From: Hamiltosporidium tvaerminnensis
Lineage: Eukaryota; Microsporidia; Dubosqiidae
DNA: 64,000 nucleotides
Direction: 5' to 3'
Assembly: GCA_022605425.2 (NCBI GenBank)
Contig: CM061255.1
Coordinates: 62,001-126,000, forward strand
The translations under genes and the position numbers were made by a program. This document shows positions 1-63,762 of this stretch, one piece after another (positions within the stretch are counted from its first letter, which is position 1; each line of letters begins with the position of its first letter). A model generated the notes under the pieces. That model did no database searches. It was not told the origin of the DNA and was given only the letters and a program-made list of their open reading frames with translations.

Positions 1-610
1 AATCATTTTGATGTTCTGAGTTGTGTGCTCGTGCATAAATTACATTTTCCAAGGCTTGTTCTGGGTTTAAATCGTATCTAATTGCTATTTCTTTAAGTCT
101 TTCTGGTCTGAAAGTTCCTTCTGTGTCTATGAATGCAGCTTTGTATGTGGAATTGAGTAGTTGTACGGTTACACAGAGTGTGTGAGAAAGTTGTGTTTTT
201 CCTGTTCTAAATTCTCCAAATACTTCTGTTATAGCCATAGTTTGTATACCGCCGTTTAAAAGGGTGTCAAAATCTGACGATCCGGTGGATATTTTAAGGA
301 CTTGTTCTCTTCGACAGTTAAATTGAGAGGCTGTCATAAATGAGGTGGTAGGTGTTAAAGAAGAGTCAAAGAATTTATGGACCGCTTCTTTCATTTTATC
401 TACTTTTGTTTCACTCATACCTTTGATTTTTATAAGATTACGACGAGTGTGCATTGTTAGTCCTTTCAGTGTACAGATGCCTGCTTGTTTTAGTTTAAGG
501 ATGTCTTGACTTGCAATACCAAAGTTTGACAGGTCATCGATTGGGTGTAAGGTTTCTTCTTCTGAGTCTTTCATCTGCTCTGAAAGAATTGTTTGTTCTG
601 TTTCAATCAT
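1..610 (-). CDS. DMC1: DMC1-type meiotic recombinase (RecA/RAD51 family), C-terminus outside the window
   Basis: RecA/RAD51-family strand-exchange ATPase; DMC1 works with RAD51 on single-stranded DNA in meiotic recombination. The ATG is at 608-610 and the frame stays open to the window edge, giving about 203 residues of a usual ~340. Residues ~28-75 form the helix-hairpin-helix DNA-binding N-domain ([16 protein letters not shown], then [14 protein letters not shown]). Residues ~131-138 are the Walker A box GEFRTGKT, followed by [12 protein letters not shown], which is the DMC1 form; RAD51 has [25 protein letters not shown] and [10 protein letters not shown] follow as in the family. One residue pattern (SEHQND at the edge) is where the sequence ends. 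No frame break is seen, so the gene appears intact as far as visible. The family call is very secure; DMC1 over RAD51 is likely, from the Walker A flank. Its presence argues that the organism can carry out, or recently could carry out, meiosis. Confidence 0.93.
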
Positions 611-640
611 GCGAATTTAAATTTTACATTTATTTATACT

Positions 641-3390: not shown

Positions 3391-3679
3391 AGTTTGCTCA
3401 AAACTTCTTTTACTACTCGGATAGTCTTTGAAGAAATATTTTATTATTTTTCAGGTAAGAGAACAACAAAATATATAGTTTCTAAGGAATAAAATTATTG
3501 GAATATACCTTTTAGTTAGCATATAAAAATACTGACTCTAATAAGATTCTAATAAGTAGTTTTGACATAAAAGTTGGAAGAAATACAGAGAATAAATACT
3601 AACAACATTTTATTTCAATATTTATATTGAAATACAGTTTATAAGAATAAAAAAGTGTATTTCTCATAGAGTTAAAGTT
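3391..3679. other. AT-rich intergenic stretch
   Basis: Nothing supportable is seen between the tandem array and the interspersed repeat. Confidence 0.4.
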
Positions 3680-4405
3680 TAATCAAAAATATCACATATT
3701 TTTAAAACAGTGGCAAGTGTTAGATTTGTTTTCATGACATTAACGCAGTTCTAGGTTTAGAATAAATGACTGCTACTCCAACACTCCATCGGTAACCCCT
3801 GCGATATCTACGTCCCAAAGCCTTTCATCTAACAGGTGTGTAGAACCTAATTAATTGGCAAAACAGTTGCCCGAAGTTCGATAATGTCCGTTGCATGGAG
3901 TGTGATCGAAGGCCGAAGCCCCCCCTGGGCTCCCCCAAGACTATGCAGCATTCCCACTTACTCTACACTTTCTGAACCCAATAAAATTCTAGCTAAGATA
4001 TATTTCAGAGACTTACATGGGGTCCACCTAGACAGTGCAATGTCATACCACAGGTATAACCTGCTACTTAGCTTTCCTGGCTTTATATGGTTTTTATTTT
4101 TATATCTCTCAGGCACTAAGTCTTCTAACCCGAGTGATCAAGGCTATGTTTCCATGCTTTTACATGACAATTACCTACATGTTCAGCTGCGGTCTCCGAT
4201 CTAGTTACATAAAAAACTACAAATAAATTTGTAGAAAAAGTTTCTCCATTTCTCAGACCTCTCCCCCTCATAACAATTCCCATGGAAGAACCAAAGATGT
4301 AGTGTGCTTATATTCCCGTTAAAAATCCAAAAATTTATCTTAACACCAGTTTACCATACTCATTGCCAAGCAGAAGGTTTTTTATGTGGTTATCCACCTT
4401 CCAGC
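3680..4405 (-). mobile_element. 0.72-kb interspersed repeat, family 1, copy A
   Basis: Near-full copy of the repeat also found at 8513, 15977, 35048, 43535 and 57652. The orientation is set by the 5' head GTGGAGGGAGGATAACCACA, here degraded at the right end (plus strand TATCCACCTTCCAG). The 3' end is AT-rich. The inner part is over 90% identical by eye to copies B and D, including a run of seven C before TGGGCTCCCCC. It is more GC-rich than the flanks and has no conserved open frame: the 106-codon frame at 3884-4204 is not kept in other copies. No clear target-site duplication is seen. Confidence 0.85.
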
Positions 4406-4615: not shown

Positions 4616-4628
4616 CCACCCCCCTCCC
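4616..4628 (+). promoter_or_regulatory. CCC-type block directly before the start codon
   Basis: CCACCCCCCTCCC ends two bases before the ATG at 4631 in otherwise 75-80% AT sequence. Microsporidian genes commonly carry a CCC- or GGG-like motif right before the start, tied to very short 5' UTRs. This supports both the lineage and the choice of start. Confidence 0.65.
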
Positions 4629-4630
4629 TT

Positions 4631-6472
4631 ATGAATACCAGTGATAGAAGTATTTCTCATTTAAATAGAATTTTATCGCTTACAAAATGTAAAAACTGTT
4701 TCAAATATAAAATTACAAAAATGAAAATACAATGTCGACATCTTTTATGTTCTGAATGTGATACACTAAGTTGTAAAATATGTTCTAAACATAGTATAGG
4801 TATTGATATACATGTATATACATTTCTTCATGACTTACTTAGTCGTAATTGTAATGAATTAAATGAATTTAAAATTTATCGTAAAAAAGAAGATATTTGG
4901 GTGGAAAGTCAGGAAGTTTTTGAGGAAAATATTTGTGTGAAGAATAATCTTTATAAATATAAGTACGAATCTGAAAAAGAAGGCAAACAGGAATTTTCTG
5001 ATTTGAAAGGAGAAATTATGAATTTAAAAAATATGTTTTTTGGTGAAGAAAAAAATGCGGTGGAAAATAAAAAAAATAATGAAAATGAACCGATTTCTAC
5101 TTTGGCTGAATCTTCATTTGCTATTCCGTTTACAAGTCCCGTTTCAACACAGAAAAGTAATAACGAAAGTAAATTCACTCAATCTGTATCTTCTGATATT
5201 CCAAAAGAAAAGGAAATTAAAAATAAAGAAACCTTATGTGTTACAGGTTTTGATAAAAATATGAATTTAAGAGATAAAGAGAGAACATCTAGACTTATAA
5301 AGGAATCGAAATACGATATAACTGGGAAGAAAATTTCAAATAAAAATAACGAGAATATTGATAAAATTAGTACAAATTTTACAGAAATTTTAAATAAAAA
5401 TAATGAAAATATTGATAAAGTAGGAACAAATTGTACAGAAATTATAAAAAAAGAGAAGCAAATTTTAAATAAAAATAATCAAATTGTTGATATAATGAGT
5501 AAAAATGGTAGAGAAATTATAGAAAAAAATGAGAAGCAAATTTCTAAAAACCGTTTCGATGGTATAAAAATTACCGAAAATGAAACCAACCCCATCATTA
5601 CAACAGAAGATCATCCAAATTCCGAATCAAAAATTTTAAAAAACATTAAAAACTCAATCGAAGATAAAAATATCGATTCTCACAAAAAAACCAAACACGA
5701 AATTTCACCTGAAAAATCTTCTAAAAACCCAATTATTTCACTGACAACAAAATCATGGAAAAATAAAATCACAAAAAACGAAAACTCAACAGAAAATCAA
5801 AACAACTTCTTGCCAAATTTAAAATCCGAACCCCCAAAAAATATAAAAATTTCTCTCCAAAATTCTCCAAATCAGGTAATTCAACCCGAAATACAAAATC
5901 AAACAAATTTAGATGCCTTCGTATTTCTAACCAGTGGACTGTCTTCAGAAGAAAATATTTTTATTTCAAAAACCTTCTGGTCGCTACAAAATAAATTAAA
6001 CATTCCAATCGAAATAAAATCCGAATATTCCTCTTCAATTACACATCTGATTGTAAATATCGATAAAAATGGTTGTTGTTTACGAACATTAAAATATTTA
6101 TTGTGTATTTTGAACGGAGTTAAAGTTGTGTCTTATTCTTGGTATAAAAAACTAATTAAAGTACCTTCAGTAGAAGAAAAGGATTATTTTATAAAAGGTG
6201 ACAATATTTCCGGGGGAAATAACGTTCCTTATCAAATTTATAAAAATGCTCAAAATGGTATTTTTTATTTCAATAAAATTAATTTTTTAATTGAAAAAAA
6301 ATTTATTACAAAAGATTTAAGAAAAGTCATTAAAAATGGAAAAGGAAAAATAAATGAAAATAATTTTGAATTTACCAATTTAAAAGTTCAAAATGAAAAA
6401 GAAATTTATAATTTTATTTCAAATGGAACTTTTCTTAATTATAAAGCGATAAAAAAAGGTAATTTATTGTAA
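4631..6472 (+). CDS. BRCA1/BARD1-like protein: RING finger plus C-terminal tandem BRCT, 613 aa
   Basis: Probable RING E3 ligase/phosphopeptide-binding protein of DNA-damage response. Residues 20-51 form a C3HC4 RING: C20-x2-C23-x11-C35-x-H37-x2-C40-x2-C43-x4-C48-x2-C51. The x11 spacing equals that of BRCA1; the last loop is the shortest allowed. A helix-like IDIHVYTFLHDLLSRN follows, as in BARD1/BRCA1. Residues ~60-420 are Lys/Asn/Glu-rich and probably disordered, with three ~23-residue repeats (NKNNENIDKI..N.TEI) at ~237-308. Residues ~427-515 are BRCT1: SGLSSEE (S435), THLIV, RTLKYL (R485, T486, K488) and VVSYSW (W504) line up with BRCA1 VSGLTPEE, THVV, RTLKYF (Arg1699, Thr1700, Lys1702; Ser1655) and VVSYFW, so the phosphoserine pocket is kept. 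KGDNISGGN follows like BRCA1 RGDVVNGRN. Residues ~541-613 are a short, divergent BRCT2. There are no ankyrin repeats. Start supported by the adjoining C-rich block. Family is strong; BRCA1 versus BARD1 is not settled. Confidence 0.85.
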   Translation: MNTSDRSISHLNRILSLTKCKNCFKYKITKMKIQCRHLLCSECDTLSCKICSKHSIGIDIHVYTFLHDLLSRNCNELNEFKIYRKKEDIWVESQEVFEENICVKNNLYKYKYESEKEGKQEFSDLKGEIMNLKNMFFGEEKNAVENKKNNENEPISTLAESSFAIPFTSPVSTQKSNNESKFTQSVSSDIPKEKEIKNKETLCVTGFDKNMNLRDKERTSRLIKESKYDITGKKISNKNNENIDKISTNFTEILNKNNENIDKVGTNCTEIIKKEKQILNKNNQIVDIMSKNGREIIEKNEKQISKNRFDGIKITENETNPIITTEDHPNSESKILKNIKNSIEDKNIDSHKKTKHEISPEKSSKNPIISLTTKSWKNKITKNENSTENQNNFLPNLKSEPPKNIKISLQNSPNQVIQPEIQNQTNLDAFVFLTSGLSSEENIFISKTFWSLQNKLNIPIEIKSEYSSSITHLIVNIDKNGCCLRTLKYLLCILNGVKVVSYSWYKKLIKVPSVEEKDYFIKGDNISGGNNVPYQIYKNAQNGIFYFNKINFLIEKKFITKDLRKVIKNGKGKINENNFEFTNLKVQNEKEIYNFISNGTFLNYKAIKKGNLL

Positions 6473-8491: not shown

Positions 8492-8512
8492 CTAAATAAT
8501 TATAAAATCTTT
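8492..8512. repeat. Left target-site duplication of repeat copy B
   Basis: A 21-bp stretch starting CTAAATAATTATAAAATC is repeated exactly at 9236-9256 on the other side of the inserted element. A duplication this long is typical of LINE-type (target-primed) integration. Confidence 0.9.
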
Positions 8513-9235
8513 ATTTAAAATATCACATCTTTTATAAAACAGGGGCAAGTGTTATATTTGTTTTCATGACATTAACCCAGTTCTAGGTTTAGAATAAATA
8601 ACTGCTACCTCAAAACTCTATCAGTAACACCTGCGATACCTACGTCCCAAAGCCTTTCATTTACCAGGTGTGTAGAACCTAATTACTAGGCGAGGCAGTT
8701 GCCCGGAGTTCGTTAATGTCCGTTGCATGGAGTGTGATCGAAGGCCGAAGCCCCCCCTGGGCTCCCCCAAGACTATGCAGCATTCCCACTTACTCTACAC
8801 TTTCTGAACCCAATAAACTTCTAGCTAAGATATATTTCAGAGAATTACATGGGGTCCACCTAGATAGTGCAATGTCATACCAACAGGTATAACCTGCTAC
8901 TTAGCTCTCCTGGCTTTAAATGGTTTTTTGTTTTATATCTCCCAGGCGCTAAGTCTTCTAACCCGAGTGAGCAAGGCTAGGTTTCCATGCTTTTACATGG
9001 CAATTACCTACATGTTCAGCTGCGGTCTGCAATCTGGTTACATAAAAAACTACAAATATTTTTTTGAAAAAGTTTCGTTATTTCGTAGACTTTCCTCCTC
9101 ATAACAACTCCTATAAAAAACCGAAGATGTAGTGTGGTTTTATTCCCACCAAAAATCCAAACAATGATCTCACACCAGTTTCACACACTCATTGCCAAGC
9201 AGAAAGTTTTTTATGTGGTTATCCTCCCTCCACTG
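8513..9235 (-). mobile_element. 0.72-kb interspersed repeat, family 1, copy B (intact, 21-bp TSD)
   Basis: Best-defined copy: 723 bp between perfect 21-bp direct repeats. Sense runs right to left: it starts CAGTGGAGGGAGGATAACCA and ends GATGTGATATTTTAAAT next to AAAG. It has an A/T-rich 3' end, no terminal inverted repeats and no long open frame, so it behaves as a non-autonomous retroposon moved by a LINE machinery. It carries GGC-TTCG-GCC (a UUCG tetraloop stem in RNA) and a GCAGG-TATAA-CCTGC hairpin. No parent LINE for this family is seen in the window. Length is long for a SINE; a structured RNA ancestor or a 5'-complete nonautonomous LINE derivative are both possible. Confidence 0.9.
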
Positions 9236-9256
9236 CTAAATAATTATAAAATCTTT
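9236..9256. repeat. Right target-site duplication of repeat copy B
   Basis: Exact match to 8492-8512; marks the other edge of the insertion. Confidence 0.9.
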
Positions 9257-12200
9257 AAAAACAAATAAAAAAATATTTACTAATTTAATAAGATTAGAAT
9301 CAGCTTTCAAAAAAAATTTTTTTACTGATAGATATAAAATAATTTAAATTAGTTTGATGTGAATAATATATGAAAAATCATAAGATTTCATAAGAACCTT
9401 TAAAATATTGTGAATTCTAATTTTGAACAGCAAATAATTATAATATTTAGCTTCCAATATGATTTACACATATATATACATTTGCTTTATTTTGCATGCA
9501 CCATGCTCTAATTCAAATAACCTTCAAATTTTTAACTTTTAGAAACCAAACTTTATTCTGCTGGCATTATGCCAACGAACGAAAATGGTGAGTTTTTCGA
9601 GCAATAAAGTTTTCGGAAAAGAACAAAAGAATTTTAAAACGTAAATGTTCGCCATATATGATATTTATAAACGGAAGAAAACGACTAATAAAGAATCATT
9701 AATCTATTAACAAAGAGTACAATGTACTTTAAAATTAAATATTTTTTTTATTAAAATAATTTTTAAAAAATTTTTGTAAAAAAAATTACAAACGAAAACG
9801 TACTATGGATATTAGTGTTAGCAAGTATATTTTTTGAAACTGTGTATTAAGCAATTTCAAGTTCTCAAATCTTATATTAGAAACTCAATGTGAAATTCTT
9901 GACAATTTTTTTCGTAAAAAGGAATGAAAACAAAAACTTACAAAAATATTTAAATATGTAAACATTATTCTATTAAATTTGATTATACTAAAAAATACTC
10001 GTATTAATGAAATTTATGAAGTTGCAATACCTATGAAAAAGTTATTTTAATTAGATTGTTTTCAAAACAAATGAACCAATTTGTTTTAGAAAAGCCTTTT
10101 TTTTCATCTAAGATATATTATCAATCTCAACATTAACAGCTGGATTTATTTTAACCTTAAAAAAAATTAAAATCCTTAGACAATAAATGATCTAAATTGA
10201 TATGGGCTCAGCTACTTTATTCTTTGACAATGATATCAGTATTTTAAAATTAGAAATTAGCTTTTATTTTAAGTCTATTGTAACGTCAAGAATTAAAATT
10301 AGAAACAGTCGAGTTTTCTTTAAAACAAGATTTACAAAAATAAACGCTAATAGTTAGTTTACTAGAATATGATTAAGCAAATAATCTTAAAAGACTGAAA
10401 ATAATTAGCAATTTGACAATTTGCTTATAAAGACAAGTCATTCTAATGCGTTCCCAGGAAAACCATTGCTAAAAAGCGGTTTTAAAATATTTAAGGCAAA
10501 CAAAGATATTTATCGAATTTGAATTAAATTAAAAAATTTCATGATACATTTATCCCATTAATTTTTTAGAAATAAGCCTATCAACTTAGCCGTTAAGCAC
10601 GTTTATAATCACCATATCGATACTAAAAATATGACCAGTTAGAATATACTAAAATTATCCAAAAAACACATATCTATAACAGTTTTTCCGAAGAATAAAT
10701 TTAAGAAACATGCTTTAAATGTATTTAAGGTGTATTTTAGATGTAAAGCAATAAATCATCATTTATACTCTGAAATTATTTTTGCTAAGATTCTCAAACA
10801 AATCACCTAAAAACCTTAGCCATAAATCTGACAAGTACAAAAATACTATCTTTAATATTAACTTATTCAATTAAAATATTTACAAACTGAGATATTTTAT
10901 ATCAAACAAATATGCATGATGTTAAGAAAGCATATTTAAAATTTGATGAAAAAATTTAAATCACTTCAGACGGAACTAAAAAAGCACAATAATCATAGCA
11001 ATAATGAAATATTAGCATCATTTAACATAATAAATAACATAGATATTTTAATATGAAATTTTACCAGCCGAATTTCTGAGAACCATCTAATCTAAATAAT
11101 TTGTAAATACGCAGTGAATATACAAACTGTCTATTAAACACAATCTACAAATACACCTATTTATAAAATATTTAACATGCCGCTTTTATAGAAATAATAA
11201 TTTATAATAGATAAGCATTGAAATATTAAGCAAATATTCAATTTTATAAATATTATTACAAATAATTCTATTTCTTCTCACACAATATATATTATTGCTC
11301 TATCAAACATAATTGAGATTAGAGACACTTTAGCATCTTAACAGTGGACTAAAATAAAATTATATTCATTTGTCATACAATAGAAAAATTCAGTGTATCT
11401 TCCAAGACTGTTCTGAAATATCAAAAGAAAATATATATGCAGAAAATAAAATCCTAGATATTAAAATTTAAATCTAGAATTATAAAATCGATCTATTAAA
11501 AAAATTTGAGCCGAATGTAGCTAAAAATCGACTATTTGCGACTTGATAAAAGACAAATAGGTTATGTACATTTTTATTTCTAATTGACTATATAATTAAA
11601 AATTAAGTATTTATTTAAATGTATTTTACTAATCTAATTATAATAGCAATAAAGATCGGAATCTGACATATTCCTTCTATAATTTTTACACAGTAATCGA
11701 GATTTTATAATACAATTCCAAATCATTTTGAAACGACAAAATTATTATATTATGATAATATTATTTTAAATATAAGCTGTTCTGCAATTTAAGCCAATTT
11801 ATATCCTGTAAACCTAACATTGGTAACCAAAATATATCCTTCAAATGGAAGCAAAAAGGTTTGATACTAGGTATAGTAGGTATAAAAAAATTAGGGTTAT
11901 GCTTAAATAAAAAGGCATATATTATAATTAAGACTGCTAGCAATTGTTTTATAACATTAATGGGTTAAGTTAAGCTTTCTTTAGACGCATCATTACTTTC
12001 GAAACTCTCTTCTTAATGCGGGATTTTCGGCTTTAGTGTAACATTAAAGCACTTCATTCAATTGATTAAATATTTTACGTTCGACATTTAAAGCAGTTTT
12101 TAACTTATTTCTTAAATTTTTATATGATACTCAGATGTAAGCCTCCCTAAAATTTTGCATATGAAAAATGTGGATAAATTACGAAGCATTTATTTATATA

Positions 12201-15200: not shown

Positions 15201-15976
15201 GACACACTTTTATGAAGTTGTCCTTAATTAGCTTGATACCAATCGGCAGATATCCGTGATATGACTTCTCAGATATGACAGCGTCAGATCTTCCTTACTA
15301 AAATATGTCTATGAAAAAAATATTATGTTAGTAAAGTAATTTGTAAAATCTAAAGTATATTTAAAATTTCTTTTTTAAAGCATTAATAGTATTTGAGTAG
15401 TAACACAGTCTATTGTTCGTATAGAAACTTAGTTCGGTTACATTAATTTCTACAGGTTTATGGTTTATTTGAACCTTTGGTCACATACTATATCCTTTTT
15501 TTTCTATTACAAAACTTTATTACGAATAAACTCGCAAACATTATATACTATCTTAAGTTTTCCTATCCGCAAGAACTTTTTGGTGTTGAAGATGAAAATA
15601 TGGAATGACTACGTATTCTTTCAGTGGCCAAACCTAAGAATTTTCTTGGTTTTATAATTTATAATAGATGAAAATTTTTATTAAAATAACAACTTTTTGT
15701 ATCCCATACAATTTTATTGTTTCAAAAACAAATTTTACATTTCAAAAATAATTTATTTTTTAATATTCGTGTTTCTTTAAATTTTAGATTTTCTTGAACC
15801 AATCAATCTCGTTTTATATAAAACAATTTTTTTTGATTTTGTCTAACAGAGCGAGTATACCATCTCATAATAGTCTATATAAAAATATGCTTCTTGAATT
15901 TAATTCCAAAACATACATTCGATCTGGGAAATTTGCAGTATAATTTTTTTTATAATATTTCATATTTAAAATAATA
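9257..15976. other. Gene desert
   Basis: About 6.7 kb at roughly 75-80% AT. The frames of 60-90 codons in it (for example 12155-12406 plus, 13836-14105 minus) show no recognised motif and have the Phe/Ile/Tyr/Lys bias of translated noncoding AT-rich DNA. The 12155-12406 peptide ends with a leucine-spaced stretch that loosely resembles a leucine-rich repeat, too weak to call. Slightly less AT-rich patches lie near 14,000-14,250 and 15,120-15,300. Confidence 0.5.
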
Positions 15977-16697
15977 GTGGAGGGAGGATAACCACATAAA
16001 AAACTTTCTCTTGGCAATGAGTGTCTGAAACTGGTATAAGGATCATTGCTCATTTTTTTGGTAAGGCTCAAATCACACTACATCTTCGGTTGTTCCATGA
16101 TAATTGTTATAAGGAAGAAAGGTCTAAGAAATAGCGAAACTTTTTTACAAATTTATTGTGAGTTTTATGTAACTGGATCAAAGGCCGCAGCCAAACACAT
16201 ATGTAATGGCCATGTATAAGCATGAAAACCTAGCCTTGTTCATTCGGGCTAGAAGACTTAGTGCCCGGGAGATATAAAAATATAAACCATTAAAAGCCGG
16301 GAGAGCTAAGTAGCAGGTTATACTTGTTGGTATAACATTGCACTGTCTAGGTGGAACTCATTTAATTCTCCGAAATATATCTTAGCTAGAACTTCATTGG
16401 GTTCAGGAAGTGTAGAGTAAGGGGGAAGGCTGCATAGTCTTAGTGGAGCTTAGGGTAAGTTCCGCCTTCGATTACAATCCATGCAACCGACATTAACGAA
16501 CTCCGGTCAACTGTCTCGCCTATAAATTAGGTTTTACATACCTGGTAGATGAAAGGCTTCGAGACATAGGTATCGCAGTAGGTACTGATAAAGTGTTGGG
16601 TAGCAGTTATTTATGCTAACCTAGAACTTCGTTAATGTCATGAAAACAAATATAAAACTTGCCACTGTTTTAAAAGATGTGATACTTTACAATAAAG
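15977..16697 (+). mobile_element. 0.72-kb interspersed repeat, family 1, copy C (older)
   Basis: Starts GTGGAGGGAGGATAACCACA and ends GATGTGATACTTTACAATAAAG. It is full length but clearly more diverged than copies A, B and D: the G-run and TTCG hairpin are broken (TTCCGCCTTCG) and many C-to-T/G-to-A changes are visible. Frames on either strand are not shared with other copies. No clear target duplication remains. Confidence 0.85.
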
Positions 16698-35047: not shown

Positions 35048-35761
35048 TAGAGAATGGATAACCTCATAAAAAACTATCTGCCTGGCAACGAGTTTGGGAA
35101 ATAGTGTGAAGATGATTGTTTAGATTTTTGCTGGGAATAAAACCACACTAGATCTTCGGTTGTTCTATGGCTGTTTTTATGAAGAGTAGAAATCTAAAAA
35201 ATGGCGAAACTTTTTTTACAAATATATTTGCGTTTTTTATGTAACCGGATCAAAGGCCGAGACACACGTAGGATATTTCCATGTAAAAACATAAAGTTAG
35301 CCTTGCTCCCTCGAATTATAAGACTAAATACCTGTGAGATATGAAAATAATCACCAATTAAATCCGGGAGAGCTAAGTAGTAGGTTATACCTGTTGGTAT
35401 GGCATTGCACTTTCCAAGTGGACATCGTGTAAGTCTTGGAATATATCTTAGCATAAAGTAAAATGAGTTTAGAAAGTGTAGAACAGGTAAGAATACTGCA
35501 TAGTCTTTGAGCGCGAGGGGGGTTTCGGCCTGCATAACACGTAATGCAACAGACATTAACATACTCCGGGCGACTGTCTCGCCTATTAATTAAATTTTAA
35601 ATGTCTGTTCGATGAAAGCCTTTGGGACGTAGGAATCGAAAAAGGTACTGATGGTGTGTTGAGATAGCAGTTATTTATGTCAAACCTAGAATCGAGTTGA
35701 TGTCTAGGAAACAAATATAACACTTGCCACAGATTTAAATGATGTAATAATGTAATCAAAG
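35048..35761 (+). mobile_element. 0.72-kb interspersed repeat, family 1, copy E (old)
   Basis: Starts TAGAGAATGGATAACCTCAT and ends near ATGATGTAATAATGTAATCA. Landmarks are recognisable (CACACTAGATCTTCGGTTGTT, GTAGGTTATACCTGTTGGTA, GGTTTCGGCC, GACTGTCTCGCCTATTAATT) but there are many substitutions and small indels. The TTCG hairpin still pairs. The 122-codon minus frame at 35194-35562 is a by-product. Confidence 0.85.
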
Positions 35762-42570: not shown

Positions 42571-43522
42571 TATTTGTTCATCCACAACAGTAGGAGAAAA
42601 AACAACTGAAATTGTAAGCAAAAGTATGTTTTTCGAGTTTTTCAATCGTCAAATTAATTCTAAGGTATCTATGTATAAAAAATGATAAATTTTAATCTTT
42701 CTATAGTGAACCCGTCGACTCGGCCATAAATATTAAAAAAAAGAGAGCTTTTTGCATTTTGTAATTAATTTACTTTATTCAATAGCGAAAAATGGTAACA
42801 AATATATTAATTTTATACTTTTTTAAATGTATCAAAGAAAAAAGAATTCTTTTAAACTATTATCTTATAAAAACTCTAAGCAAATTATATTGACAAAATA
42901 AAATTTGCAAAACGTTTTATGAATTACATTATAAAAGGAACCAAAAATCTATATTATGTTCTGAGAATTTTAAAAATTATTATTTATTTTCGTGGCAGTA
43001 TAGCTGCTTGTAAATGGTAATTTCTTTTAAATTTTTGTTTATAACCTTATAGTTTATATCTTTATCTATAAATATAATGAATTATTGTATATGTCTTACT
43101 CTATTATTTATAATCTTCATAATCTTTAATAATGTTTGTTCATTTTTATAGATTTGGAACTTTCAAAATTTAATTTATGCTATTGTTTTACCCGTGGACT
43201 CTAAAAACAATAAAATAGTTTATTGGTAGGTATTTCAAAAAATTCTGTTATAAAAAAACATATCTAATTTCCAATATGTCTTTTACTTTTATTTCGACAA
43301 AATTTATACAATATATTCTAGTTCGTATATTTGCTCATATTGTACACCGCATGTAATACGATTTAGCAATAAATTTTTAGTTTTTCTGTGATTTTTTCAA
43401 TTTTTACGATACAAATCTTTTTTTGTTGATAAACTAAAAATAATTTACAAACACAAGTAAATAGTATTAATTGAATAGATATCAAAGAAATTTTCGAGGT
43501 ATTTTAACAAAATATAAGAATT
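42571..43522. other. AT-rich spacer
   Basis: Nothing supportable is seen. Confidence 0.4.
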
Positions 43523-43534
43523 TTGTAATGTAAT

Positions 43535-44265
43535 TGGTGGAGGGAGGATAACCACATAAAAAACTTTCTGCTTGGCAATGAGTGTGTGAAACTGGTGTGA
43601 GATCATTGTTTGGATTTTTAGTGAGAATACAACCACACTACATCTTCGGTTGTTCCATGGGAGTTGTTATGAGGAGGAGAGGTCTAAGAAATGGAGAAAC
43701 TTTTTCTACGAATTTATTTGTAGTTTTTTATGTAACCAGATTGCAGACCGCAGCTGAACATGTAGGTAATTGCCATGTAAAAGCATGGAAACCTAGCCTT
43801 GCTCACTCGGGTTAGAAGACTTAGCGCCTGGGAGATATAAAAATAAAACCCATTAAAAGCCAGGAAAGCTAAGTAGCAGGTTATACCTGTTGGTATGACA
43901 TTGCACTGTCTAGGTGGACCCCATGTAAATCTCTGAAATATATCTTAGCTAGAAGTTTATTGGGTTCAGAAAGTGTAGAGTAAGTGGGAATGCTGCATAG
44001 TCTTGGGGGAGCCCAGGGGGGGCTTCGGCCTTCGATCACACTCCATGCAACGGACATTAACGAACTCCGGGCAACTGCCTCGCCTATTAATTAGGTTCTA
44101 CACACCTGGTAGATGAAAGGCTTTGGGACGTAGGTATCGCAGGGGTTACCGATGGAGTGTTGGGGTAGCAGTCATTTATGTTAAACCTAGAACTGCGTTA
44201 ATGTCATAAAAACAAATATAACACTTGCCACTATTTTAAAAAAGATGTGATACTTTTAAATAAAG
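43535..44265 (+). mobile_element. 0.72-kb interspersed repeat, family 1, copy D (intact, 12-bp TSD)
   Basis: 731 bp between exact 12-bp direct repeats TTGTAATGTAAT (43523-43534 and 44266-44277). Starts TGGTGGAGGGAGGATAACCA and ends GATGTGATACTTTTAAATAA plus AG. Very close to copies A and B, so these three are a young group. The GGC-TTCG-GCC hairpin is at 44021-44030. No frame is shared with other copies; the 77-codon frame at 43582-43815 is broken elsewhere. Confidence 0.9.
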
Positions 44266-44277
44266 TTGTAATGTAAT

Positions 44278-61551: not shown

Positions 61552-63762
61552 CTACCCTTTACCTATATACTTCTCTTTAATCTCTTCATAGACTTTCCTT
61601 ACATAAAACACTTTATCTTTTTCTAACTTACTTACTAAACTAAGACCCTTTATTCCCATAGTCTCTATAACCTTTAACATTAGAATAACCCTATATCTCC
61701 AATCATTACTGTTATTTAACATATTCTCAATAATTATTACTTTAAATTCTTCTTCATAGTAATTTAACACCTCCATCATACAACCTATAAAATTCTTTCT
61801 TATATTATCATTACTAACACTTACATCTGTTATTATTCTTTTTAAAGATAAAGAGGTACATTCAAAGACACTTAAACCACTTAATAACTCTGAAATTAAA
61901 TAAGGATAATTAGTACTATTGTTTAAAGGGGTGTTAATATCAATAGAGGGGGTGTTATTACTACTACTGTTGTTTAATAGGGTGTTACTATTGCCTAACA
62001 GGTTGCTATTACTGTCTAACAGTGTGTTATTACTACTGTTATCTAACAGGTTATTACTACTACTGTCTAACAGGGTGTTAATACTATTGTCTAACAGGGT
62101 GTTATCATTACTGTTGTCTAACAGGTTATTACTACTACTGTCTAACAGGGTGTTATTACTACTGTTGTCTAATAACCTATTATCATTACTACTAGTACCT
62201 GTGTTATATGTCTCATCATTAAAGGGTGTTATATTACCTAATATATCATTACTATTATAACACCCTTTATTATCTTCTCCTTCTATAACAGTAATATCAT
62301 CTACCTTTAATTCATTTAACCCTTTATCTTTAGATTTATTTCCTAAAGCCTCTTTAATAGAGGGTAATGAACAAAGGGTGTTAATAATAGGAACAGTAGA
62401 GGTATTATTAAAAGTGTTATCACCAAAGGGTATTTCCTCAGTAGTGTTATTAAAGGGTATTTCCTCAGTAGTGTTATTATTAAAGGGTACTTCCTTATCA
62501 CTAAAGGGTACTTCCTTATTAACACCCTCTATTTCCTTTATAACCTCTTCATCCTTATTAACACCCTCTAATCCCTTTATACCCTCTAATTCCTTTATAC
62601 CCTCTTCATCCTTATTAACACCCTCTAATCCCTTTATACCCTCTTCTTCCTTATTAACACCCTCTAATCCCTTTATACCCTCGTCATCCTTATTAACACC
62701 CTCTATTTCCATTATACCCTCTTCTTCCTTATTAACACCCTCTTCATCCTTATTAACTCCCTCTAATTCCTTATTAACACCCCCCTCTCCTATATCACTA
62801 TACTTACTTTCCTTCCCTTTAAATTTACTGTTATTTTCACTTTCCTTAATAACACGTACAACATTAACAAGCCATTTACATAAAACACTTCTTATTTTAT
62901 CACCCCACATCCAATACATACAAACATAAAGCATAACCATTTCTTTTATATTATAATACTTTATAAAGTAACCATAACACCCTGCTAATGGTATACATTC
63001 ATTTACAGATGAACTTGGTGAATTAAGAAGATTAACAGTTGTTTTTACATAATTTATAAGTAAATTAACAGGTATATCTATAGAGGGTGTTATTATACTG
63101 TAAATACTTTTTAAGTATTCTTTAGAAATATAACTAGTAACAGGGTGATAGGTAGTAAGGGGGTGATAATTATTAGGTGTGTTAGTAAGAGGGTGTTGGT
63201 TGGATGGTGTGTTAATAAGGGGGTGATAATTATTAGTACTGTTGTTATCACCCTGTTGTTTAGTAGTACTATGACTAACACCCTCTAATACACTATCCTT
63301 ATCACTAACACCCTCCATCATATCCCTACTATTGCTAACACCCTCTAATACACTATCCTTGTCATTAACACCCTCTAATACACTACTACTGTTACTAACA
63401 CCCTCTAATACAGTATCCTTATCACTAACACCCTCTAATACACTACTACTGTTATTAACACCCTCTAATACACTATCCTTGTTATTAACACCCTCTAATA
63501 CACTACTACTGTTATTAACACCCTCCAATCTACTACTATCATTATCACCCCCTAATATACCCTTGTTATTAATACACCTATTCCATATAGATTTATAAAC
63601 ATAAAGACATATTTCAATATCAGATTCTATAAGACTATTAACACCCTTTAATACCTCTTTACAATATATTCTATCTAAATATTTAGCACATATTATCTTA
63701 TTAGAGGTGTTAGCATTACAATAATTATTATATATATTATAAAGGGTGTTATCCTTAAACAT
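61552..63762 (-). CDS. Repeat-riddled protein with HEAT-like C-terminus, 736 aa as written
   Basis: Frame from ATG 63760-63762 to TAG 61552-61554. Structured segments are residues ~1-75, ~190-311 and ~612-736. The last 50 residues (NDWRYRVILMLKVIE, then LVSKLEKDKVFYVRKVYEEI) fit a HEAT repeat of the type in the PP2A scaffold subunit (D-W-R-R, then KD--VR), so a helical-repeat scaffold is my best guess, at low confidence. Between them lie three low-complexity inserts: ~79-171, ten-residue units LEGVNNSSSV/LEGVSDKDTV (30-bp DNA period); ~321-416, LEGVNKDEEGIKG-like; and ~427-611, NNTLLDSSSNNLLDN and EIPFNNTT. All are built on the GGGTGTTAA DNA word, in minus orientation in the first two and plus in the third. 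The frame is open upstream of the ATG to 63864, and the true start may be earlier (see 63810-64000). Confidence 0.75.
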   Translation of the reverse strand: MFKDNTLYNIYNNYCNANTSNKIICAKYLDRIYCKEVLKGVNSLIESDIEICLYVYKSIWNRCINNKGILGGDNDSSRLEGVNNSSSVLEGVNNKDSVLEGVNNSSSVLEGVSDKDTVLEGVSNSSSVLEGVNDKDSVLEGVSNSRDMMEGVSDKDSVLEGVSHSTTKQQGDNNSTNNYHPLINTPSNQHPLTNTPNNYHPLTTYHPVTSYISKEYLKSIYSIITPSIDIPVNLLINYVKTTVNLLNSPSSSVNECIPLAGCYGYFIKYYNIKEMVMLYVCMYWMWGDKIRSVLCKWLVNVVRVIKESENNSKFKGKESKYSDIGEGGVNKELEGVNKDEEGVNKEEEGIMEIEGVNKDDEGIKGLEGVNKEEEGIKGLEGVNKDEEGIKELEGIKGLEGVNKDEEVIKEIEGVNKEVPFSDKEVPFNNNTTEEIPFNNTTEEIPFGDNTFNNTSTVPIINTLCSLPSIKEALGNKSKDKGLNELKVDDITVIEGEDNKGCYNSNDILGNITPFNDETYNTGTSSNDNRLLDNSSNNTLLDSSSNNLLDNSNDNTLLDNSINTLLDSSSNNLLDNSSNNTLLDSNSNLLGNSNTLLNNSSSNNTPSIDINTPLNNSTNYPYLISELLSGLSVFECTSLSLKRIITDVSVSNDNIRKNFIGCMMEVLNYYEEEFKVIIIENMLNNSNDWRYRVILMLKVIETMGIKGLSLVSKLEKDKVFYVRKVYEEIKEKYIGKG
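63277..63530 (-). repeat. 30-bp coding minisatellite (LEGVNN/LEGVSD units)
   Basis: AACACCCTC recurs at 63307, 63337, 63367, 63397 and onward at 30-bp steps (about nine units). Alternate units encode SSSV and KD(S/T)V after LEGVN/S, so there is a 60-bp higher-order pattern. The frame is kept throughout. Confidence 0.9.

Follow-up and report, generated by a model that had tools for sequence, protein, structure and literature searches.

The stretch of DNA analysed here, called the window, comprises 64,000 nucleotides of Hamiltosporidium tvaerminnensis, a parasite of Daphnia, and corresponds to bases 62001-126000 of contig 10; the genome searched consists of 21,638,905 bases in 17 contigs. At positions 4631-6472 of the window, on the forward strand, lies an open reading frame, P0001, that runs through 613 codons from ATG to stop without an internal stop and occurs at a single locus, in one copy. 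It encodes, in order, a RING, a disordered-looking linker, a first BRCT domain (BRCT1) and a tail resembling a second one (BRCT2). In a protein search, its counterparts are a protein of Hamiltosporidium magnivora (93% identity) and an incomplete one of H. tvaerminnensis (97% identity); NCBI calls the two hypothetical, and UniRef labels the former BRCT domain-containing. These counterparts bear out the microsporidian origin given in a preliminary description, made from the letters alone, which saw a BRCA1/BARD1-like protein in a microsporidian-type genome. Judged by its sequence, P0001 is a genuine, intact gene. The bases immediately 5′ of its ATG (4616-4630, same strand) form, on inspection, a C-rich stretch resembling what we take to be the CCC motifs that precede microsporidian start codons. 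We propose, as somewhat more likely than not, that P0001 is a BRCA1/BARD1-family protein and forms one side of a RING heterodimer of the BRCA1-BARD1 type in reduced form, whose E2-binding partner would be the product of a 93-amino-acid gene, here called mini-RING.

The evidence for family membership comes from BRCT1 (residues 428-532; 5912-6226, forward strand). With phmmer, at expect values (E) up to 10, the full protein matched 29 PDB sequences, namely 18 BRCA1 (best 5e-8), 7 BARD1 (best 3.6e-5) and 4 others, which are weak IAP or TIF1-beta matches on the RING region. Residues 428-613, searched to the same limit, gave 25 matches: 18 BRCA1 (best 1e-8, 38.7 bits) and 7 BARD1 (best 3.2e-4, 24.1 bits). 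BLASTP with a human BRCA1 isoform finds 33 of 101 columns identical over residues 432-531 (E of 7e-11 for the pair), and a profile-profile comparison with BRCA1, in which the profiles are shallow, gives a probability of 95.3% over 98 columns. A BRCA1 BRCT query scores 36.0 bits against P0001, a value that none of 500 shuffles reached (best 13.0). The Pfam BRCT model accepts BRCT1 taken alone (22.4 bits, cut-off 21.3) and fails inside the whole protein (18.8). The five motifs singled out by the preliminary description, SGLSSEE (435-441), THLIV (471-475), RTLKYL (485-490), VVSYSW (499-504) and KGDNISGGN (522-530), all fall within the aligned stretch and in BRCA1 order. Its match of S435, R485, T486 and K488 to the phosphoserine pocket agrees with our alignment, in which S435, G436, R485, T486 and K488 stand opposite BRCA1 S1655, G1656, R1699, T1700 and K1702; these we take, numbering included, to be the pocket residues. 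BRCA1 Phe1704 is replaced by Leu490. Membership of BRCT1 in the BRCA1/BARD1 family is thus, in our view, very probable.

The N-terminal 90 residues (4631-4900, forward strand) contain all eight ligands of a C3HC4 RING in order, C20-x2-C23-x11-C35-x-H37-x2-C40-x2-C43-x4-C48-x2-C51 (nucleotides 4688-4783), between flanks that look helical by eye. The pattern arose in none of 200,000 shuffles of these residues and in none of 20,000 when the entire protein was shuffled. The RING announced earlier therefore stands by its complete ligand set, but its Pfam RING score (15.9 bits) is under the cut-off of 27. Its supposed BRCA1-like character holds for the spacing up to the last loop, where P0001 has four residues and BRCA1 thirteen. 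At the position of BRCA1 Ile26, P0001 carries the polar N22, and BARD1 is likewise polar there; for this reason, the RING looks like that of a partner that does not bind E2.

The mini-RING gene (L011; G000:C12:866856-867137 = L019:4857-5138), complete from ATG to stop, is 1 of 13 RING places found over the genome with one RING profile; the next gene, presumably deoxyhypusine-synthase-like, lies 152 bases beyond its frame. Among the best 60 of 78 PDB chains, it matches the BRCA1 RING of 1jm7 at 2.5e-10, with both flanking stretches aligned. With BRCA1 residues 1-110 as the query, the mini-RING scores 41.5 bits and the next of 14 genome RING sequences, a set without L012, scores 20.3. When the human BRCA1 isoform was searched against the whole genome, the mini-RING came out at 1.5e-8, BRCT1 of P0001 at 1.5e-7 and, third and last, L012 at 0.017. 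The mini-RING and BRCT1 being the two significant matches, the two conserved ends of BRCA1 lie here on two contigs. In the alignment, the Ile and Lys that serve E2 binding in BRCA1 are present in the mini-RING, which, as far as its sequence tells, is little beyond a BRCA1-type RING plus flanking helices.

The preliminary description expected a RING partner elsewhere in the genome. A candidate, of unexpected form, is the mini-RING gene, with both flanking helices, although no second RING-BRCT gene appeared either in the Pfam BRCT and RING genome scans, which also missed P0001 and its RING, so that a further diverged gene could escape, or with the human BRCA1 query, which recovered P0001 and no further BRCT. 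To the pairing of the two products we give an even chance. Other candidates were set aside. L021, which alone matched the RING model of BARD1 type (at 23.1 bits, under the cut-off of 35), reads as what we take from its sequence features to be an Mpe1/RBBP6-type protein. The BRCT proteins that the Pfam scans found besides P0001, a list that may be incomplete since P0001 was missed, are Pescadillo-, RFC1- and Dpb11-like; on the same kind of features, we presume L023 to be Pescadillo, L001 RFC1 and L002 a Dpb11/TopBP1-type protein.

How might such a pair work? P0001 would serve as the structural, BARD1-like partner because its RING, though complete in zinc ligands, lacks the residue that contacts E2, and its BRCT module would bind a phosphoprotein at damaged DNA. 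The mini-RING would be the E2-binding partner, in effect a BRCA1 of which only the RING and the helices on either side are left. The dimer could then ubiquitylate chromatin or a repair target, and it might favour strand exchange by RAD51 or DMC1 loaded by a BRCA2-like protein. It is tempting, if tentative, to see in this a BRCA1-BARD1 ligase rebuilt as a minimal pair, in which a RING-only "BRCA1" of 93 amino acids recruits E2 and the RING-BRCT subunit bears the complex's only BRCT, within a BRCA pathway equally stripped, with one BRC-like repeat in the BRCA2-like protein and a 66-amino-acid CtIP-like tail. The orthology of the halves is mixed: P0001 looks BARD1-side by its RING and BRCA1-side by its BRCT.

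The companion genes of such a pathway are present. About 4 kb from P0001, on the reverse strand, window positions 2-616 cover the 5′ portion of a DMC1 gene (in G000:C10:61594-62313 and beyond), whose frame matches DMC1 in the PDB at 2.6e-58 and RAD51 at 5.2e-46. Two RAD51 copies (L024 and L025, 441.6 bits each) point in opposite directions and are separated by about 13 kb, at G000:C1:1488211-1488942 and 1502204-1502935, and RAD52 is also found. The BRCA2-like protein is a 690-amino-acid open frame (L027; G000:C15:131609-131917) that matches the BRCA2 OB1 model at 60.3 bits, BRCA2 chains of the PDB at 6.3e-8, and the BRC-repeat model once, at 16.9 bits, under the cut-off of 20.3. An open reading frame of 66 amino acids (L032; G000:C6:58512-58583) matches CtIP/Sae2 over 24 positions (21.9 bits, cut-off 19.8) and at the C-terminal end only, with C-x2-C, RHR and PPGYW; it is perhaps a CtIP cut down to its tail. 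E2-like places in the genome number nine. The H2A tail model had no match here or in any control genome and is hence uninformative.

Several observations weigh against the heterodimer proposed here. With Cys and His fixed, the P0001 RING is no nearer BRCA1 than its shuffles, of which 146 in 300 score at least as high, so that the likeness to BRCA1 stated earlier does not extend beyond the ligands, and it is only marginally nearer BARD1 (17 of 300); BRCA1 residues 1-110 score -0.4 bits against P0001. In Z against BARD1, 7 of 12 other genome RINGs, the mini-RING not counted, exceed it, and against the PDB the RING alone has a weak preference for IAP RINGs (E 0.0046) and no BRCA1 or BARD1 match. 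BRCT1, for its part, is nearer BRCA1 than BARD1, so that a BARD1-like subunit would resemble BRCA1 by its BRCT. On the partner's side, Gly-Asn replaces BRCA1 Lys70-Arg71, the pair that docks on the nucleosome, so that nucleosome docking of the animal type is not supported. The motif SPxF, to which BRCA1 binds, is found neither in the CtIP-like frame nor in the scanned BRCA2-, Dpb11- and Bre1-like frames. The tandem BRCT of the preliminary description was not confirmed. Residues 533-613 (6227-6472, forward strand) have the length and place of a compact second BRCT, and a BRCT2 is proposed from these two features, yet no BRCT match was obtained for residues 533-613 in Pfam or 536-613 in the PDB, and it is unproven. 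Two structure models are of low confidence (mean predicted local distance difference test values of 42.6 and 42.9), and no BRCT was among the structures listed as similar to the first. Since the BRCA1 phosphopeptide site lies partly at the BRCT1-BRCT2 interface, the second BRCT is the weakest point of the earlier claim. Conservation within the genus spans a short time only: residues 1-90 are unchanged, over 90 and 84 aligned positions, in the two other Hamiltosporidium sequences that cover them, BRCT1 is identical over 105 positions in all three relatives compared, and residues 533-604 differ at 2, 1 and 0 of 72 positions in the three. Two Hamiltosporidium species differ by 0.012-0.017 substitutions per site, in a genus grouped with Astathelohania, according to the available text of PMC12558613, and because they are so close, the unchanged domains are a weak sign of constraint.

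An alternative is a P0001 that is a lone phosphoprotein-binding scaffold, a BRCA1/BARD1-family relic whose RING no longer recruits E2, next to a mini-RING that is an unrelated small E3, for instance a RAD18-, RING1- or MSL2-type remnant. Besides the missing similarity of the P0001 RING to BRCA1 beyond the ligands, this explanation can call on the other matches of the mini-RING, which is also near RING2 (2.2e-9, among the same best 60 of 78 chains) and matches the MSL2 model (31.9 bits, above the cut-off of 31) and the RAD18 model (31.1 bits, far under 175). The mini-RING is, however, by far the nearest to BRCA1 of the 14 genome RINGs compared, and most of it aligns with the BRCA1 RING unit, from residue 5 to 78, against 12 to 73 with RING2. 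A RING2-BMI1 chimera reaches 4.6e-12 by summing two domains, the better of which scores 37.6 bits against 43.3 for BRCA1. We consider the lone scaffold unlikely, if the least so of the alternatives.

The BRCT might instead derive from another multi-BRCT family (Rtt107, TopBP1/Dpb11 or PTIP), the RING having been joined to it independently. The sole other Pfam family listed for BRCT1 is indeed RTT107_BRCT_5, at a weak 16.6 bits (cut-off 27); residues 428-613 searched against the whole PDB, however, found BRCA1 and BARD1 only, and up to an E of 10 neither Rtt107 nor TopBP1 came up in a database that we presume to contain both, and the genome has its own Dpb11-like protein, which scores 1.7 bits with the BRCA1 BRCT query that gives P0001 36.0. 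A nearer family of this type, which would have spoken against the earlier assignment, was thus not found, and such an origin is improbable. Equally remote, or slightly more so, is the acquisition of BRCT1 from the animal host by horizontal transfer. Microsporidia take host genes, and the nearest sequences compared to BRCT1 are vertebrate BRCA1, in a comparison without arthropod BRCA1, but identity to BRCA1 is only 33%, and P0001 sits, as a single uninterrupted frame, in AT-rich DNA like the remaining window and occurs in two Hamiltosporidium species. Moreover, the available text of PMC11061109 reports BRCA1 in early-diverging fungi.

The proposed P0001/mini-RING pair shares with BRCA1-BARD1 of animals and plants an N-terminal C3HC4 RING, a long middle and a C-terminal BRCT, with identical phosphoserine-pocket residues in P0001, and the mini-RING gene supplies the E2-type BRCA1 RING with its flanking helices. 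It differs in that the E2-type RING and the BRCT are on separate genes, in that no second BRCT-bearing subunit was found by scans that missed P0001 too, and in a BRCT2 unrecognisable by sequence. RING1B-BMI1 of PRC1 likewise combines one E2-binding and one non-binding RING, and the RING2 match of the mini-RING recalls it, but BRCA1 outscores RING2 on the mini-RING and aligns over more of it; to our knowledge, that family lacks a BRCT. Rtt107/Brc1 and TopBP1/Dpb11 are BRCT-based readers of phosphoproteins with many BRCTs and, as far as we know, no RING; they are absent from the PDB matches of both full P0001 and its BRCT region.

Microsporidia are related to fungi, are known for gene loss and are a standard example of reduced DNA repair. 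The occurrence of a BRCA1-type protein together with RAD51, DMC1, RAD52, a BRCA2-like protein and a CtIP-like tail suggests that extreme parasitic reduction can leave a BRCA-type recombination kit in place. The split pair, if true, would bring BRCA1-BARD1 down to a very small set of parts found in nature, and would put to the test which domain has to be carried by which subunit. In what follows, Lobosporangium is what we take to be the full form of a genus name. In its available text, PMC11061109 surveys 183 proteomes of fungi and five of other opisthokonts for genes of the Fanconi pathway, describes transcripts of BRCA1 from Lobosporangium, Mucor and Rhizopus, and shows a BRCA1-type gene kept outside animals and plants with BRCA2 and RAD51, as here; unlike here, that text has no microsporidian BRCA1 or split architecture, and its two mentions of microsporidia concern FANCJ and Pso2. 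BRCA1 is placed in early eukaryotes, with loss in model yeasts, in the part of PMC3969565 available. Retention, which the preliminary description thought would alter the view of when the family was lost, is by itself less surprising given the published fungal BRCA1. Among the papers listed by searches of the open-licence PMC literature, none was seen to report BRCA1 or BARD1 from a microsporidian, or a BRCA1 split over two genes, and the main text available for PMC12134460 and PMC9053307, on microsporidian repair proteins, has no word starting with BRCA1 or BARD1.

Single-sequence searches of P0001 over about 5.8 billion proteins (E up to 10) matched the query and two Hamiltosporidium proteins and no homolog outside the genus; one scored 8000 candidates, from an incomplete candidate list, and the other 535. 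A profile search that included two BRCA1 rows gave 481 matches, of which the best 120 are 4 Hamiltosporidium entries, query included, and otherwise BRCA1 entries, primate wherever named. Fungal or microsporidian homologs may sit among the other 361, so that a restriction to Hamiltosporidium is not claimed.

Between the domains, residues 91-427 (4901-5911, forward strand) form a linker rich in K, N, E and I. Compared with two relatives, it differs at 14 and 17 of 337 aligned positions, with insertions left out of the count, and at 4 of 107 in a third, partial one. Tandem repeats of 54 and 75 bases occupy positions 5331-5548, and the H. magnivora protein, of 634 amino acids, has an additional repeat-like stretch of 24 residues in its linker. 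At the very end of P0001 (6440-6472), NYKAIKKGNLL stands where three public Hamiltosporidium sequences have NYKSDKKR. This is consistent with a one-base length change in a run of A, whether real variation or an assembly error; BRCT1 is unaffected.

A dispersed repeat of about 730 bases occurs in the window in five copies (3672-4403, 8509-9266, 15943-16697, 35055-35749 and 43516-44271) that are pairwise 76-94% alike; one ends some 230 bases before P0001, and the small open reading frames at 3884-4204 and 35194-35562 fall inside copies. Beyond P0001, the roughly 55 kb from 6473 to 61551 contain one open reading frame of at least 100 amino acids, itself inside a repeat; we judge this to be, for a microsporidian, a long stretch with few genes. 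It is followed, on the reverse strand, by a frame of 736 amino acids (61552-63762) with no Pfam match at E up to 0.1, which is rich in EGVNK- and NNTLLD-type repeats that recur in other frames of the genome, such as L014 and L026.
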